Shown one piece after another: positions 3 to 5,658 of a DNA stretch of 64,000 nucleotides; the first letter of the stretch is position 1, and every line of letters begins with the position of its first letter. The position numbers and the translations under genes are program-made. Under the pieces are notes generated by a model. That model saw nothing but the letters and a program-made list of their open reading frames with translations, was not told the DNA's origin and made no database searches. This DNA is from Planotetraspora phitsanulokensis (GTDB lineage: Bacteria; Actinomycetota; Actinomycetes; Streptosporangiales; Streptosporangiaceae): contig NZ_BOOP01000025.1 of NCBI RefSeq assembly GCF_016863295.1, positions 62,001-126,000 on the forward strand. Direction: 5' to 3'.

Positions 3-146
3 GAACTCGGCATCTCCCGATCGACCTTCTACGAATGGCGCGCCAAGCGCCGTGCACCTAAGTGCATCACCCTGCCCAACGGCAGCCTCCGGGTCCGCCG
101 TACCGAACTTGACCGCTGGCTCGACGACCGAGAGGACGCCGCCTAA
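3..146 (+). CDS. Excisionase/AlpA-type small HTH DNA-binding protein, 5' end cut off
   Basis: Only the last 47 codons are in the window, reading from base 3 to a TAA at 144-146. The translation begins with a helix-turn-helix segment (ELGISRSTFYEWRAKRRAP), followed by a short wing (ITLPNGSLRVRRTELDRWLDD). This is the layout of MerR-like excisionase and AlpA proteins that bend DNA or control excision of actinobacterial integrative elements. Its stop codon overlaps the ATG of the integrase (TAATG), so the two are translationally coupled, which is the usual xis-int arrangement. The excisionase role is inferred from fold and neighbour. The N-terminus lies outside the window. Confidence 0.75.
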   Translation, partial: ELGISRSTFYEWRAKRRAPKCITLPNGSLRVRRTELDRWLDDREDAA

Positions 147-1555
147 TGGGCAACACCACCACCTACGACGTGCGGATCTACAAGACCGAGATCCGCAAAA
201 ACACAGCAGGGAAGATCACCTCATACCGAGTGCGGTGGACGACAGCCGGCAAGCCATGGAAGAAGAGCTTCCAGAAGCGCGCCCAGGCAGACACCTATCG
301 AAGCAACCTCGTCACCGCCGCGAGGGACGGCGAGGCATTCAGCCTGGTCACCGGCGAGCCCATCAAGTGGGGGAGGGCCGCTCAAGAGATGAGCTGGTAC
401 GAATTCGCATGCCGGTTCGCCGACTTCAAATGGAAAGTCGCCTCAGCTAAGTACCGACAAGACATCGCCCGCGCTCTCACCGCAACTACCCCCGCCCTGC
501 TCACCAGCGACAAGCGGAAACCAGATGACCTGACCCTCCGCACGGCCATGCGCCGATGGGCCTTCAATACCAAACAACGCGACCACGCCGTTGGAGATAT
601 CGCCGACGCGCTCGTCTGGCTCGCCGACAACACCGCACCCGTGTCCGCTCTTGCCGAGGCCGCGACCGTCCGCGCCATGCTCGACACCGCCAGCACACGA
701 CTGGACGGAAAGCAGGCAGCCACCAGCACGATCCGCCGAAACAAAACCATCCTGCAAAACGCTCTCGACTACGCCGTTGAGCTGGAGCTCCTGACCACGA
801 ATCCGATCAAGTCACTCAAGTGGAAGGCACCCCAGGTCACCCACGAGGTGGACCGGCGAAGCGTGGTCAACCATGCCCAGGCTCGCCGCCTACTAGCCGC
901 CGTCGAAGCCCAGAAACCCAGCGGAAAACGCCTGGTCGCCTTCTTCGCCACCATGTATTACGCGGCATTGCGCCCCGAGGAAGTCGTCAACCTCCGCGAG
1001 GACAACGTCACCCTCCCCGATCTCATCTGGAACCCCAAAACAGAGCAGACGGAAGAGCCTGCCGACGACTGGGGAGAACTCCATTTCGCCAGCGCCGCAC
1101 CGTTCGCCGGCCGTGAGTGGACAGATGACGGCAACCCCCGAGAGGAACGGTCACTTAAGCACCGCGCGAACGGCCACGCCCGCACCGTCCCGTGCCCGCC
1201 GGCACTCACCAAGATTCTCCGCGTCCATCTGGCCGAGTTCGGCGACGGGCACGGTGGGCTACTATTCACCGGCGTGCATGGGGGAGCAGTGCCGGGCATT
1301 ACCTACCGGCGGGTATGGAGTAAAGCCCGCGAAAACGCCCTCAGCGCGATGGAGGCTCGGTCGCCGCTCGCCAAGCGCGTTTACGACCTTCGGCACGCCT
1401 GCGTCTCCACCTGGCTCAACGCCGGAGTTCCCGCCACCCAGGTAGCCGAATGGGCAGGACATAGCGTAGAGGTTTTGCTACGCATCTATGCCCGATGCAT
1501 TGTCGGGCAAGACGCGGTTGCCAAACGTCGGATATCCGAGGCTCTCCGTGAATGA
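146..1555 (+). CDS. int: Tyrosine-type site-specific recombinase (integrase)
   Basis: A 469-residue phage/ICE-type integrase that would catalyse recombination between element and chromosomal att sites. The N-terminal third has an arm-binding-like segment (YRVRWTTAGKPWKKSF near 27-42), followed by a SAM-like core-binding domain near 170-240. The catalytic domain shows Arg276 (YYAALRPEEV), Arg416-His417 (VYDLRHACVSTW), His439 (WAGHS) and the nucleophile Tyr448 (RIYAR). The first His of the HxxR box is a Tyr (Y413), which I believe is common in actinobacterial integrases. The start is the ATG overlapping the upstream stop. It runs convergently into the cargo operon, with only 7 bp between stop codons. 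The target is inferred to be the tRNA-Arg about 4 kb to the right. Confidence 0.93.
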   Translation: MGNTTTYDVRIYKTEIRKNTAGKITSYRVRWTTAGKPWKKSFQKRAQADTYRSNLVTAARDGEAFSLVTGEPIKWGRAAQEMSWYEFACRFADFKWKVASAKYRQDIARALTATTPALLTSDKRKPDDLTLRTAMRRWAFNTKQRDHAVGDIADALVWLADNTAPVSALAEAATVRAMLDTASTRLDGKQAATSTIRRNKTILQNALDYAVELELLTTNPIKSLKWKAPQVTHEVDRRSVVNHAQARRLLAAVEAQKPSGKRLVAFFATMYYAALRPEEVVNLREDNVTLPDLIWNPKTEQTEEPADDWGELHFASAAPFAGREWTDDGNPREERSLKHRANGHARTVPCPPALTKILRVHLAEFGDGHGGLLFTGVHGGAVPGITYRRVWSKARENALSAMEARSPLAKRVYDLRHACVSTWLNAGVPATQVAEWAGHSVEVLLRIYARCIVGQDAVAKRRISEALRE

Positions 1556-1562
1556 CGCGTCC

Positions 1563-3284
1563 TTAGGATCGGTGCCTTCTGCTTCGCAGCGCATAGCGCA
1601 GCGTGCTGGTGAAAGCGGTGAGCTGTTCCACCGTTCCTAGCGCGGCTATACGTTTAACGGCGTAGCCTACAGCTCTATCAGAGAAGTTCTCATGCGCAAC
1701 CCACTTCAGCATTTGGTCAACGTCCACTGATTCACTGGGCAACTTATCATCGCGAATATCGGCGCGCCCTGCGGCGATAGTGGAGCGCTTTAGGTTAGGG
1801 GAACGACTCACTTCAGTGGGGCGAGTTTCTTCACTTGAGGCTAGGGGCAGTTGTTCGATTTCGGATTGCGCCTCAGAGAGGTTTCGAACGCGCCGCACTG
1901 GCCTATTTCCCGTGGGCAGTTCACGCAGCCTCGGGCGATGTTTGGCAAGGAATGATGCACCAAAATCGCTGTGCACCCATGACCAGACTGCATCTTTCTT
2001 TTCCGGAGAGTCGGTGCCCTCAAGTGGTTCCAGCCAGCTAAGTCCGGCCAGCGCCGGACGGCCTTCTACCGTGCCTACTGCATCTAGTTGAGTCCGTGGA
2101 GGGGACCAGTGCAGCAGATCCGGATAGCTAAACGTCTTAGTCGTCTTTCCGCTCGCTATTTCCGCTAGTTTTCTCGCTTCAGCGATTAGATACGAGCTGT
2201 CGAGTACATGTTCAGGGTCTGGTGCTTCAACGGCATCCGTGGCCCCAATCAGAGCGCCTGCCATTGTCGCGATGGTATCTGTGTCCGTACCTAGAGCGTT
2301 TGCGGAAAGGAGGGCAGCACGGGCGGGATCGGGAAATGCGGCCGCGATTGCCATGGCAGCCAGCACGGTGGTTATGCCACTTCCACGGTGTGATGGATCA
2401 CGAAGTTTCAGGATCTCCGTAATCGTGTCGTATAGCTGTGCTTGGTCTTTCAGTGGCAAATCAATCTTCGACTTCAGTTGAACTACTGCGTGGCTGAGTT
2501 CCGGCAGTACTACACGGCATTCGCGGATAGTTTGATGCCATGCCTCGGAAAAGGAAGAGCCGACAGTTCTCTCCCATTGAGGACGCCACACCGTTGAGAG
2601 TTGCGAATGATCGTCCACGAGTTTGACAGACTGCTCACACATGTGGAGCAACTCTGGCCATCGTTCGGGTCCGGGCACGTGGCCTTCGTGCAGGGTCACA
2701 CCTAGTGCGACGGCATGCAGGACTGCACCAACCAAGGCCCGAGGGTGCCCATGCGTCGCTATGGCATTTATTAGGACATCAAGGATGTGTGGTCCCAATA
2801 TTGCAGGCTGTGGCGCAGCCCAAATATGAGGCTGGATCCGCATGGCAACGCCGTTGCCACCGGAATTTTCCCATCCGTCGTAGAAATTTCCAAACCATGG
2901 GACACCTGGACGGGCCAAGTTAACCGCCGCCGCTTTGGAAGCACGACCGCCCCCCAAGGCATACGAAGGCCACACGGTCATTTCGACCTGTGTAAATGCC
3001 TCGATGTCGAAACCCCGGTTTTGAATGGAACGCGAGGTGGCAAGCCGCAACTGTGTGTCATCGCTATAGCATCCAGCCGGCAAGGCAACCTCGACGCCAA
3101 ATCTCCCGCCGACTCGACGCTTCCACTCGACTGGTTCAACCAAAGGCTTTCCCGACAAACGGCGTCGGAGCCCGACGTCGTCAGTGAGCTCGGTTATAAA
3201 TCCCAAAGCGTCAGCCCATGCGGCCCACAGCATGGAGTTGACCGTACGACGAACCCTCGTCGATTCGTACGTGGCGGGGGTCAT
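1563..3284 (-). CDS. ADP-ribosylglycohydrolase (ARH/DraG-like) family protein
   Basis: A 573-residue protein, last gene of a three-gene minus-strand operon. The N-terminal 350 residues carry hallmarks of ARH hydrolases: a dinuclear-metal motif SDDTQL near 74-79, GGNGVAMR near 142-149, and a second metal motif LGTDTDT near 331-337 followed by a glycine-rich helix. Such enzymes cleave ADP-ribose from protein or nucleic-acid targets. The C-terminal 220 residues match no domain I know and include a Ser/Glu-rich stretch. The start chosen is the ATG at 3284, whose bases overlap the TGA of the DarT-like gene (ATGA). A longer open frame exists upstream but lies wholly inside that gene. Inferred role: reversal of the upstream transferase's modification, analogous to the macrodomain protein DarG. 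GC is lower than in the chromosomal genes. Confidence 0.88.
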   Translation of the reverse strand: MTPATYESTRVRRTVNSMLWAAWADALGFITELTDDVGLRRRLSGKPLVEPVEWKRRVGGRFGVEVALPAGCYSDDTQLRLATSRSIQNRGFDIEAFTQVEMTVWPSYALGGGRASKAAAVNLARPGVPWFGNFYDGWENSGGNGVAMRIQPHIWAAPQPAILGPHILDVLINAIATHGHPRALVGAVLHAVALGVTLHEGHVPGPERWPELLHMCEQSVKLVDDHSQLSTVWRPQWERTVGSSFSEAWHQTIRECRVVLPELSHAVVQLKSKIDLPLKDQAQLYDTITEILKLRDPSHRGSGITTVLAAMAIAAAFPDPARAALLSANALGTDTDTIATMAGALIGATDAVEAPDPEHVLDSSYLIAEARKLAEIASGKTTKTFSYPDLLHWSPPRTQLDAVGTVEGRPALAGLSWLEPLEGTDSPEKKDAVWSWVHSDFGASFLAKHRPRLRELPTGNRPVRRVRNLSEAQSEIEQLPLASSEETRPTEVSRSPNLKRSTIAAGRADIRDDKLPSESVDVDQMLKWVAHENFSDRAVGYAVKRIAALGTVEQLTAFTSTLRYALRSRRHRS

Positions 3285-3946
3285 TGGAATACCTCCGGCT
3301 TGTACTCGACCGGCACGGGGGAGATCTTCGGAAAGAGCGGAAACCATCCGCGGATCGTGTCTATATGCTCTTCTTCGCGCACATAAATGGCGCGGAGAGT
3401 TCCGATTGGGACTTGTTGAGGATACAGGACCTCCGCCTGGGGATCCGTTGTCCAAGATGCAGGCATCCGGCTGTTCCGATGGAATCGACTGCCGTACCGG
3501 CCCCATTCAACTGAGTCTGCGAACAGGGCCGCCAATGAATTGACTCCTATGCCGCGCTGAACGCAAGCTGAATATGTATTATTCGTGGTCGTAAAGTGGA
3601 CTCCAGGATGGACCAGAAGTGAGGCATCGAATGAGAGTATCGCCCACCAGACATCCTCCGTCGCGTGCCAGGTCTTTGAGACACCCAGCATCCGTCCGTT
3701 GACTCGGCTGATCGAAAGATTAACGTAGTCGGTCCACGCAGCATCCTTCAGTCGGTCCGAACAGTTTGGCGTATAGATGTGCTCTATATAGTCTTCCTTG
3801 GCAAGCCGGTCTCGTGAGAGCACGGCACCGGTAGCGAATATGCCCAGAAGTCCCTTATTTGTGGTGAAATGCAGGATTTCCTGTATTTGGCGTCCACTAA
3901 CATATTCACTGATCGAGAGATCTAGCGGGTGAGCATGATCGGTCAT
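3281..3946 (-). CDS. DarT-like (DUF4433) ADP-ribosyltransferase
   Basis: A 221-residue protein with the layout of DarT ssDNA ADP-ribosyltransferases. There is an NAD-binding H-x-T (ILHFTTNKGLLGIFATG, His26-Thr28), a DYVNLSISRVNGRML block near 73-87 matching the family's conserved 'YVNL...M' strand, and a probable catalytic Glu172 in AEVLYPQQVP followed by IYVRE. Characterised DarT enzymes modify thymidine (DarT2) or guanosine (DarT1) in single-stranded DNA and act as toxins or phage-defence effectors. Base specificity cannot be read from this sequence. ATGA overlaps at both ends couple it to the helicase upstream and the ADP-ribosylglycohydrolase downstream, so all three should be made together. 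Family assignment rests on motif order and length, without an alignment. Confidence 0.8.
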   Translation of the reverse strand: MTDHAHPLDLSISEYVSGRQIQEILHFTTNKGLLGIFATGAVLSRDRLAKEDYIEHIYTPNCSDRLKDAAWTDYVNLSISRVNGRMLGVSKTWHATEDVWWAILSFDASLLVHPGVHFTTTNNTYSACVQRGIGVNSLAALFADSVEWGRYGSRFHRNSRMPASWTTDPQAEVLYPQQVPIGTLRAIYVREEEHIDTIRGWFPLFPKISPVPVEYKPEVFQ

Positions 3947-5343
3947 AGTGTCACCAACTCATATGTCTCGGGCTTAAGTAGGCCCAGAACCCTTGATGGA
4001 TCGCTCGGCTTATAACCAATGATGACTGATTTTCGAGCACGGCCAACTCCCATAGCGATCAGGCGCCGCAGGTTATCGAGTTGAACATCTCCTTCGTCAT
4101 TTCCATGTGGAGTTACTTCTGCATTGAGTCCGGGCATCACCACGTGGTCGAATTCGAGTCCTTTCGCCGAATGCATGGTGCATAGCGCGATAGATTCTGC
4201 CCCGGTCGGCCAACGACTGGCGCGTGTCAACTCGGCAAACGGAAGTCCGCCGGAGCGAAGTCGAGCGCGCAGGGCATCGAACCACCCGTATCCGCGGGTC
4301 TGTAGGAACGCCACAGACTCATTTCCGAAGTCAACGGTACCTAGAAGTCTATTGAGTATGTAGTCGATTTGATCACTGTATTTGCCGGATACGACGAGCG
4401 GAAGCGGGCCGTCTTTCGTGCAGGCGTCGAAGTCGGGAATGGCTCCGTCGTTCTCGGCCGGCAACCCTTCGACTAGAGGGCGAGCGAACGCGGCAATCTG
4501 CTTAGTGTTCCGATAATTACGCTTAAGTGTGTAGATGTTTTCAAAGCGAGTAATGCCGACTTCTTTCCAGGCGAAGTATCTAGGATAAATTCGCTGAACG
4601 GCATCCATGACGAATGTGACCGAAAATGGATCAGATAGATGTGCGAGAACGGCGCGAACTTGATTTGCTGAGAAGTCTTGGGCCTCGTCAAGGATGACGA
4701 CATCCCATGGAGGGACGTCTTGGATCATTTTTGCGGCGACTGCCACATCATTCCAATCCAAGACATCGAGTCGGAGCTTGTCTTGCGTGTATGGCGCTAT
4801 TACTTCGTCAAGTAGCTGTCGCTTCGTTGGCGTCTCGATTCGAGGCGTAATACCTCGGCCATCTCGCCTAGCGGTCAGATATGAGCCAAGGTCATTCGGC
4901 TCGAACCGGCCCAAGAGATAATCAATCTCTTCGAGTAGAAAGTTCTCATCGCCTCGGACGTTACGAAGATAGGGCCGCAGCAGCTTTTCGGAATCCTTAC
5001 GATCAAGTACGTCCGTCCCGCCCATGAGGCCGATGGCCCACTTGCTGAGGGTCATTACCTCTAGCTGCAAGCCAGTACGGCCGGCTATCTGCTGGCGCGC
5101 TAGCTCCGTAATGTATCCCTCAAGCGTACGGTTGTACGTCAACACGAGAACACGAACAGGCGCCGTGAGGTCCAGTCGTTCCCGTCGAGCGAGCCATGAT
5201 TCGCAGAGCTGCCGCAGACGGAGTAGCGCTGTCGTCGTCTTCCCGCTTCCTGCGGCTCCTTTGATAAGCGTGAAACCCGCCTTGTTGTCCGCGAGGATCT
5301 TTAGCTGCTCGGCTGTGGGCTGGACAGGCGGGAGGATACGCAT
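3943..5343 (-). CDS. UvrD/Rep-like superfamily 1 DNA helicase
   Basis: A 466-residue compact SF1 helicase, first gene of the operon. Motifs are in order: Walker A GAAGSGKTT at 29-37, motif Ia (VLVLTYNRTLEGYI near 66-79), Walker B DEAQDFS at 219-225, motif III-like FVMDAVQRIY near 243-252, motif IV KRNYRNT near 273-279, motif V CTMHSAKGLEFDHV near 387-400, and a divergent motif VI (LIAMGVGRARKS near 427-438, where housekeeping enzymes have a VALTRAR-type box). It is much shorter than housekeeping UvrD or PcrA (about 700 residues or more) and resembles helicases found in defence operons. The start is supported by GGAGG six bases upstream of the ATG. Inferred role: supplying or clearing single-stranded DNA for the coupled DarT-like enzyme. 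Confidence 0.9.
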   Translation of the reverse strand: MRILPPVQPTAEQLKILADNKAGFTLIKGAAGSGKTTTALLRLRQLCESWLARRERLDLTAPVRVLVLTYNRTLEGYITELARQQIAGRTGLQLEVMTLSKWAIGLMGGTDVLDRKDSEKLLRPYLRNVRGDENFLLEEIDYLLGRFEPNDLGSYLTARRDGRGITPRIETPTKRQLLDEVIAPYTQDKLRLDVLDWNDVAVAAKMIQDVPPWDVVILDEAQDFSANQVRAVLAHLSDPFSVTFVMDAVQRIYPRYFAWKEVGITRFENIYTLKRNYRNTKQIAAFARPLVEGLPAENDGAIPDFDACTKDGPLPLVVSGKYSDQIDYILNRLLGTVDFGNESVAFLQTRGYGWFDALRARLRSGGLPFAELTRASRWPTGAESIALCTMHSAKGLEFDHVVMPGLNAEVTPHGNDEGDVQLDNLRRLIAMGVGRARKSVIIGYKPSDPSRVLGLLKPETYELVTL

Positions 5344-5566: not shown

Positions 5567-5584
5567 TCCGCGGTTGAGAGGTAG

Positions 5585-5630
5585 CGCGCCCTGCAGGATT
5601 CGAACCTGCGACCGTCGGATTAGAAGTCCG
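5585..5630. other. Probable attachment site (att) in the 3' half of tRNA-Arg
   Basis: Inferred only. Tyrosine integrases of actinobacterial integrative elements commonly recombine in the anticodon-to-3'-end part of a tRNA gene. The integrase and low-GC cargo lie on the 3' side of this tRNA, and typical chromosomal genes begin on the other side. The matching direct repeat would be left of the window, so the exact limits cannot be set here. Confidence 0.45.
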
Positions 5631-5658
5631 GTGCTCTATCCGGCTGAGCTAAGGGCGC
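5585..5658 (-). tRNA. tRNA-Arg, anticodon UCU
   Basis: The minus-strand sequence folds as a complete cloverleaf. The acceptor stem GCGCCCU (5658-5652) pairs with AGGGCGC (5592-5586), with discriminator G at 5585. The D-arm contains AGCTCAGCCGGATAGAGC, the anticodon loop is CTTCTAA with anticodon TCT, and the T-loop is GGTTCGAATCC. No CCA is encoded. It decodes AGA (and AGG), rare codons in such a genome. Its 3' end faces the integrase and cargo operon, the orientation expected if the element inserted into the 3' half of the tRNA and restored it. Confidence 0.96.

Follow-up and report, generated by a model that had tools for sequence, protein, structure and literature searches.

In this study, we analysed a stretch of 64,000 nucleotides of the Planotetraspora phitsanulokensis genome (hereafter the window) and identified a trio of genes for a helicase, a DarT-type ADP-ribosyltransferase and an ADP-ribosylglycohydrolase (ARH), which we read, with a probability of about 0.68, as a toxin-antitoxin module of three components, mobile and directed against phages (or against mobile elements). 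The trio looks like an undescribed anti-virus system that moves between unrelated bacteria on mobile DNA.

The operon runs on the minus strand from position 5343 to position 1563 of the window, and its helicase, DarT and ARH genes are joined by ATGA overlaps; the coordinates and overlaps that the initial annotation had given for this three-gene operon beside an integrase and a tRNA were correct. The features are as follows:

3943..5343, minus strand: compact UvrD-like SF1 helicase, 466 aa, first gene of the operon (Pfam)
3281..3946, minus strand: DarT1-like ADP-ribosyltransferase, 221 aa, predicted toxin/effector (Pfam, PDB profile, residue mapping, tree)
1563..3284, minus strand: ADP-ribosylglycohydrolase of the ARH/DraG fold, 573 aa, predicted antitoxin/eraser (Pfam, PDB profile)
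146..1555, plus strand: tyrosine integrase of the carrier element, convergent with the trio (Pfam Phage_integrase, 1.5e-9)
5584..5658, minus strand: tRNA-Arg(TCT), integration site of the element (ARAGORN)
5583..5628, no strand: attachment repeat at the trio end of the element, a 46-bp exact direct repeat

The suggestion that the operon sits at the end of a mobile element was borne out and can be widened to an entire element. An AICE-like element of 18.6 kb carries the trio as cargo. At the tRNA-Arg gene it has one copy of a 46-bp direct repeat whose second copy lies outside the window (G000:C25:48939-48984), and the other element genes gave Pfam matches to GntR (3e-21), FtsK_SpoIIIE (3e-5), DUF3631 (1e-69) and HTH_17 (3.9e-12). 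AICEs are defined by an attachment repeat at a tRNA gene, an integrase, an excisionase, a replication protein, which we take to be the DUF3631 protein here, and an FtsK-type translocase. Judged from its sequence, the carrier element appears to hold this whole set.

HMM searches of the two ADP-ribose enzymes, as the initial annotation had proposed, assigned the 221-aa protein to DarT (PF14487, 2.9e-18; 66.8 bits against a cut-off of 22.5 bits) and the 573-aa protein to ADP_ribosyl_GH (PF03747, 3e-29 over residues 18-350). Among solved structures, the profile of the former matched DarT1 (8baq) at 7.5e-19, versus 0.66 for DarT2-DarG (7omu). Its catalytic glutamate, Glu172, aligns with E152 of DarT1 and was invariant, in 6/6 and then in 19/19 aligned DarTs, so that the claim of a DarT-like ADP-ribosyltransferase withstood both a profile search and an inspection of this residue, on either of which it could have failed. 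The tree split the trio DarT and the NADAR-paired rows from 11 macrodomain-paired DarTs, whose partners carry a Macro domain, with values of 100/99. The side holding the trio and the NADAR-paired rows had no settled branching order, and there NADAR neighbours were shown only for the Klebsiella and Deinococcus rows, the row NADARpair_Sphingobium being mislabelled (its neighbour, at L018, gave no Pfam match). The position of DarT1 S63 holds Ser in 13/13 close trios; Arg45 is absent from the DarT of L012 and from those of the divergent trios, and the DarT1 Arg52/Asp54 pair lies one residue out of register in the pairwise alignment. The NCBIfam toxin_DarT model gave 17.3 bits against a cut-off of 150. 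By profile and tree, the trio DarT is of the DarT1 type (guanine, NADAR-paired) and not a macrodomain-paired DarT2; this likeness therefore points to guanine, which is most likely its target, and the protein is very probably a DNA-base transferase. The base-contact Asn was dropped as proof of guanine specificity, because it is also present in 8/11 macrodomain-paired DarTs.

The reversing enzyme proved to be a true ARH, as had been claimed. Besides the Pfam match, its profile retrieved MJ1187 (4.9e-12), an ARH3-like structure (7.9e-10) and DraG (1.2e-4) from the PDB, and its motifs stand at positions 74 (SDDTQL), 177 (TH) and 334 (DTDTI). The catalytic metal motifs SDDTQ, DTD(T/S) and TH were present in all 16 unbroken trio ARHs, two of which did not show the G(G)NG.AMR pattern. 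Past the ADP_ribosyl_GH domain, the window ARH has a C-terminal extension (approximately residues 360-573). No Macro or NADAR match was found in the three window trio proteins with Pfam, and the ARH gene follows DarT in every trio. By this position, the ARH is likely the antitoxin. Weighing against this reading, NADAR is reported to be the sole family able to reverse ADP-ribosylation of guanosine in RNA, whereas neither ARH-like SCO5809 nor the tested human enzymes did so (PMC11833690).

The third part, described beforehand as a compact UvrD-like helicase, was recovered as such, with Pfam matches to UvrD_C (1.6e-12) and UvrD-helicase (1.6e-5), and PcrA (2e-17), HelD-type (7.1e-17) and UvrD (3.1e-15) proteins were its closest solved relatives by profile. 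Walker A and DExQD were kept in the helicases of 16/16 unbroken trios, and the motif VI pattern was absent from four of them. GajB models of PADLOC were among the top helicase matches (the best 25 of 45 listed), at partial level only. The name "3'-5' exonuclease", which this helicase carries in other records, was rejected because the two members scanned had only helicase/NTPase Pfam domains. Helicase homologues alone were likewise dropped as a marker of the trio: plasmids of Geobacillus and Pseudanabaena and, among the matches listed, the viral contigs L062-L069 carry related helicases with no DarT or ARH match in the stretch examined.

Seventeen distinct loci in Actinomycetota, Pseudomonadota and Desulfobacterota were found to carry the trio with gene order and strand unchanged; 13 are close and four divergent, and at one locus the ARH is split. 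L016 and L017 were counted once, as were the Salmonella and E. coli copies, and L061, where the ARH lies at a contig edge, was not counted. Because the three genes are collinear at these loci in three phyla, their co-occurrence is far beyond chance. Motif and distance counts cover 16 of the 17 loci, L013 being excluded because two frames share its ARH. Across these 16 loci, the pairwise distances of helicase, DarT and ARH correlated with one another (r 0.75-0.95, values that still include shared host ancestry), and none of 2000 permutations reached the observed correlation. The supposition that the trio is conserved as a unit across genomes was upheld by the neighbourhood survey: it was complete at 5/5 loci from the search of genome contigs and present in 4/4 plasmid records with a close DarT, and absent in three with a distant DarT only. 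The genome-by-genome survey covered the window's phylum only; among its 396 genomes, the same three have DarT, ARH (E <= 1e-30) and the close helicase (E < 1e-180), and the three genes are adjacent in 3/3, a survey in which divergent trios may have been overlooked because only 3 to 7 first-look candidates were scored per genome (the divergent trios of G002 and G025 had search scores of only 4.8e-10 and 1.2e-8). We therefore regard the helicase-DarT-ARH trio as a conserved functional unit with near certainty. Seventeen genomes have a DarT without the trio, with no ARH or helicase profile match in the short stretches at hand (about 1.5 kb or less on each side); 12 of them have a Macro-domain neighbour (Pfam) and the neighbour at L051 gave no match, a count that leaves out L044, L046, L056 and L057. 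Annotated phage records gave no match to the DarT or ARH queries, and no fourth gene common to the trio loci was seen among the loci read.

The trio is carried by the AICE-like element, plasmids (two typed as conjugative), a Tn7-like gene cluster, an integrative island and a P2-like prophage, and was also found beside inovirus genes; at the G002 trio, a second att repeat was not found. Defence genes recur around it. Present in 21 of 5,426 E. coli genomes, the trio adjoins Tmn there, and RADAR rdrB lies about 13 kb away in two of the three E. coli stretches read, being out of view in the third because that stretch ended about 12 kb away. In two Gallionella MAGs, the trio adjoins a type I restriction subunit or a DNA methyltransferase. 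One trio occupies the gpA-portal gap of the P2-like prophage, a hotspot of anti-phage systems according to the accessible text of its description (PMC9122126). In two BREX operons, the gene after DarT encodes NADAR (Deinococcus) and ARH (Nostoc); in the latter, the ARH comes after an MkoA-like helicase and a DarT fused to an MkoB-like N-terminus. An anti-phage role of the trio is thus quite probable.

From the sequences we infer a substrate, an antitoxin activity, a defence function and a part for the helicase as follows. On single-stranded DNA, DarT would attach ADP-ribose to bases, guanine being the likeliest, and thereby block replication. The ARH, in the position of NADAR in DarTG1 and of the macrodomain protein in DarTG2, would keep the host's own DNA free of the mark, either by taking it off or by binding DarT. 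The helicase may sense or unwind replicating or broken invader DNA and hand single strands to DarT, a role modelled on GajB acting for GajA in Gabija; the odds that it is a sensor or loader are about even. Tentatively, at somewhat less than even odds, the trio may represent a third DarT class, in which the ARH would be the first known efficient eraser of base-linked (guanine) ADP-ribose on DNA and the SF1 helicase would license DarT on invader DNA. Such a class might, equally tentatively, couple a Gabija-like sensor to a reversible DNA-modifying effector that replaces the nuclease.

Other functions could be served by the same genes. As an addiction or competition module, toxin and eraser would be selected for element retention or rival exclusion, with phage defence secondary or absent, and the mobile settings listed above, from the AICE-like element, plasmids, Tn7-like cluster and island to the P2-like prophage and the inovirus neighbourhood, would suit this. 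We consider it unlikely, since the P2 site is an anti-phage hotspot in the available text of PMC9122126, Tmn and RADAR lie in the E. coli island of the trio, and plain addiction would presumably need no dedicated helicase. Very improbable is a DraT/DraG-like or RNA-targeting pair, in which DarT would mark RNA or protein, the ARH would clear the mark and the helicase would act on RNA: the transferase is a DarT1 relative, and DarT1 and DarT2 modify single-stranded DNA bases (PMC11543638, part of the text), even though characterised ARH/DraG enzymes work on ADP-ribosylated proteins or phosphate ends (PMC11833690) and Aeromonas phages are reported to have an ART-ARG pair (PMC9503650).

The helicase might instead be a repair arm, that is, a second antitoxin that clears ADP-ribosylated DNA from the host chromosome, and not a sensor. 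UvrD-type enzymes function in excision repair, which favours this reading. Repair is also reported to reverse DarT lesions in E. coli, as the title of PMC7003065 has it; however, the DarT and ARH of the Nostoc BREX come with an MkoA-like helicase, and helicases or NTPases are interpreted as sensors in several defence systems (PMC10952713, in excerpt), so a repair arm seems rather unlikely. It is quite improbable, too, that the ARH handles some other signal (free ADP-ribose or a phage mark) and that the helicase or an unseen partner restrains DarT. Strong action of any ARH on base-linked ADP-ribose is not reported in the sources as available, and human ARH3 has low but detectable activity on U-alpha-ADPr (PMC13036486, in part), both of which would agree with an ARH that is no antitoxin. 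Against it, each unbroken trio ARH keeps SDDTQ, DTD(T/S) and TH, the gene occupies the NADAR or macrodomain place of other DarT operons, and no shared fourth gene was seen at the loci read. The preferred reading remains a defence module with the ARH as antitoxin.

We found no description of the helicase-DarT-ARH trio in the open-access literature searched, and none of a component devoted to targeting or sensing in a DarT system, which the helicase fixed to the DarT-ARH pair would be. Single parts of the trio may be touched on in older reviews of the comparative genomics of ADP-ribosylation. The DarT erasers in the literature found, as far as its available text goes, are of two kinds, macrodomain and NADAR. 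A DarT1-type toxin is tied to ARH across phyla, and the position after DarT is filled by NADAR in one BREX operon and by ARH in another; this predicts that the chemistry has been solved a third time, by an enzyme unrelated to the other two. The E. coli copies make direct tests with standard laboratory phages feasible.

Among known systems, DraT-DraG and the Aeromonas phage ART-ARG pair (PMC9503650, in excerpt) likewise join an ADP-ribosyltransferase to an ARH/ARG partner, but the DraG substrate is a protein, whereas the trio has a DarT as its transferase and a helicase in addition. Mokosh type I (MkoA-MkoB) resembles the Nostoc BREX relative, with its MkoA-like helicase and MkoB-like N-terminus fused to DarT; the window trio differs in its UvrD-like, not MkoA-like, helicase and in having no PLD domain, and no Mko match was among the listed defence-model matches of the window proteins (for the helicase, the best 25 of 45). 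Gabija also pairs a UvrD-like helicase with a DNA-acting effector, but the trio has no OLD-type nuclease, nor any nuclease domain by Pfam, its helicase matches GajB models partially, and its effector, a transferase, comes with an eraser. DarTG2 (DarT2-DarG macrodomain) shares a DarT-family toxin and an eraser with the trio, which differs in its separate DarT branch (100/99), its lack of a Macro match, its toxin_DarT score of 17.3 of 150 bits and its extra helicase. In DarTG1 (DarT1-NADAR), as in the trio, one operon encodes a transferase of the DarT1 type and, after it, an enzyme that removes ADP-ribose, and both occur in anti-phage contexts. The trio toxin belongs to the DarT1 branch (PDB profile; tree, 100/99), yet in place of an adjacent NADAR the trio has an ARH, unrelated to NADAR, and a UvrD-like helicase fixed in front.

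The three genes that the initial annotation had described as a helicase, a DarT-like ADP-ribosyltransferase and an ADP-ribosylglycohydrolase (ARH) were located on the - strand of the window, exactly where it had placed them, with a 4-base overlap at the helicase/DarT joint and another at the DarT/ARH joint:

5343-3943, - strand, helicase, 466 aa, Pfam UvrD-like helicase
3946-3281, - strand, DarT, 221 aa, Pfam DarT (2.9e-18)
3284-1563, - strand, ARH, 573 aa, Pfam ADP-ribosylglycohydrolase (3e-29)

The Pfam searches confirmed both enzyme assignments proposed for the 221-aa and 573-aa proteins. The PADLOC DarT model also matched the window DarT (6.1e-9), and its score against the strict NCBIfam DarT model was below that model's cut-off; a PADLOC search of the window ARH returned no matching model. 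The best solved relative of the window DarT was E. coli DarT1 (3e-8 from the single sequence, 7.5e-19 from the family profile), and the DarT2-DarG fusion structure reached just 0.66. The ARH profile matched MJ1187, an ARH3-type protein and DraG, all inside the first 380 positions, and the helicase profile matched PcrA, a HelD-type helicase and UvrD.

Surveys of gene neighbourhoods, as the initial annotation had proposed, showed that the trio is kept as a unit. A total of 17 distinct loci were found, 13 close to the window trio and 4 divergent. Scanning GTDB genome contigs with DarT gave five loci (Paractinoplanes, Alcaligenes, one Desulfocapsaceae MAG and two Gallionella MAGs), all collinear with the order helicase-DarT-ARH. 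Seven plasmid records matched DarT, with the trio in 4/4 close ones and 0/3 distant ones; two further plasmids with a divergent trio were reached through ARH or helicase matches, and DarT adjoined ARH in all six plasmid records with an ARH match at 1e-20. The genes were present at both DarT loci of viral contigs, the ARH of one being split into two frames. With the window's genome included, a DarT match and the trio occurred in 3 of 60 relatives, and DarT occurred in 3 of 396 genomes of the window's phylum; the same three alone carried ARH at 1e-30, and six carried the helicase at 1e-30, with values <1e-180 only in the three DarT carriers. In E. coli, 21 of 5,426 genomes held the trio, always on the chromosome, >=99% identical and each with >=80% query coverage.

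Motifs and distances were compared in the 16 of 17 trios with an unbroken ARH. Walker A/DExQD, QAE and SDDTQ/TH/DTD(T/S) were kept in all 16, and the three proteins gave parallel pairwise distances (r 0.75-0.95, 0/2000 permutations), shared host ancestry being still included in these values. The hosts, however, belong to several phyla, and their relationships are not mirrored in the DarT tree; one group (fork 84/92) joins E. coli, Gallionella, Desulfocapsaceae and a Streptomyces plasmid. Separately, in G002, a same-genus genome with a divergent trio, the ARH (L084:8105-9943) has a C-terminal glyoxalase/bleomycin-resistance-like domain (1.3e-8) that the window ARH lacks. The window's genome also has a second helicase, distantly homologous to that of the trio, within a 701-aa frame (G000:C8:50927-52255, L035) and with no DarT or ARH match in the surrounding stretch. 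On Geobacillus zalihae pJS1-2 (L021:1-6392), a helicase of the trio kind (1.3e-62) closes a different operon, after a large ATP-dependent helicase, a 909-aa protein matching nothing in Pfam or PADLOC, and a small protein; neither DarT nor ARH was found in this stretch.

The DarT tree (32 rows) was split with support 100/99. One side held the trio DarTs, the two DarTs shown to adjoin a NADAR gene, one unassigned DarT (Sphingobium) and the Nostoc DarT, with branching order not resolved within it, and the other held 11 macrodomain-paired DarTs. Residue roles of DarT1 were taken from PMC11543638, where S63 is dispensable and guanine in ssDNA is the target. All 13 close trios have Ser at the S63 position, the four divergent ones have Ser or Thr, and the macrodomain-paired rows have Tyr (10) or Phe (1). 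Other residues speak against a plain DarT1 label: Asn122 has no diagnostic value, Arg52/Asp54 are shifted by one residue in the pairwise alignment, and L012 (an inovirus-associated trio) and the divergent trios lack Arg45.

Two plasmid BREX operons bear on the eraser position. In Deinococcus sp. QL22 plasmid unnamed4 (L078:12276-15496), an 846-aa fusion with C-terminal DarT, whose long N-terminus had no match in Pfam or PADLOC, is followed by a DarT1-associated NADAR protein (9.4e-76). In Nostoc sp. C052 plasmid pC052_C (L059:3878-23873; brxA, DUF1788, brxC, pglX, pglZ, brxL), an MkoA-like helicase (2.7e-106), a DarT fusion with an MkoB-like N-terminus and ARH (3.9e-42) lie between pglX and pglZ. 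The place after DarT therefore takes either eraser and, on its predicted genes, the Nostoc operon repeats the helicase-DarT-ARH order with another helicase. A Macro-domain neighbour was found in 12 of 17 other phylum genomes with a DarT.

The 3' half of tRNA-Arg (window 5583-5628) has an exact 46-bp second copy at C25:48939-48984, which puts the element at ~18.6 kb, of which only the final 5.6 kb fall inside the window. Beyond the C25 repeat, 52-68 bases match the tRNA 3'-adjacent sequence in 4/4 same-genus genomes compared, as expected if this were displaced chromosomal flank. The remainder of the element carries genes for a GntR regulator, an FtsK-type protein (at cut-off), an excisionase-like HTH protein and a DUF3631 protein, which we take to be the likely replication protein; with the integrase added, this predicted gene set corresponds to that of an AICE. 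In G002, the divergent trio is flanked by a different tRNA-Arg (CCT) and by an integrase sharing 40.6% identity with that of the window; a second att repeat was sought there and not found. Two same-genus genomes have copies of the tRNA-adjacent sequence (G001:C27:33155-33277 and G004:C41:38592-38711) at a distance of 8-12 kb from their orthologous tRNA-Arg, which suggests that other elements may use, or have used, the same site.

Elsewhere, the trio keeps company with mobile elements and defence genes. In E. coli its neighbour is Tmn (5.6e-221, from the scan of L036). The surrounding island, located beside ychF and containing integrases, is common to all three records read of the 21, and RADAR rdrB lies ~13 kb away in both stretches long enough to show it. 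One trio, with its ARH split into two frames, sits inside a P2-like prophage (L013:1976-9802) between a gpA-type nickase (4.4e-259) and the portal gene (3e-144), a site that PMC9122126 identifies as an anti-phage hotspot. Another comes immediately after inovirus Zot-like and protein-IV genes (L012:2001-8291). On the 18.8-kb linear plasmid pST1 of Streptomyces tsukubensis (L089:1109-12988), the trio adjoins a Tn7-like set (TnsA-like, transposase, ATP-binding, TniQ); a 'helicase associated domain' gene with a TniQ-like match lies on the other side. Of the two Gallionella copies, one comes after a gene for a type I restriction subunit and one comes before a DNA methyltransferase gene.

In the mechanism we propose, DarT would block replication of the invader through base modification in ssDNA, ARH would keep DarT action in check, and the helicase may find or open the target. 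In several defence systems the sensing role is assigned to helicases and NTPases, and sensing of DNA termini has been reported for GajB (PMC10952713).

A literature search, covering mostly journals without subscription, found no description of the helicase-DarT-ARH trio. In PMC11543638, PMC11833690, PMC11125620 and PMC9503650, the partners described for DarT are macrodomain or NADAR proteins, and an ART-ARG pair of Aeromonas phages is presented whose ART is not named as DarT. The Nostoc pair resembles Mokosh, but DarT replaces the PLD domain. The erasers of DarTG1 and DarTG2 are NADAR and macrodomain proteins, respectively, whereas ARH occupies the eraser position of the trio, and the trio is set apart from both systems because it has neither of these erasers.
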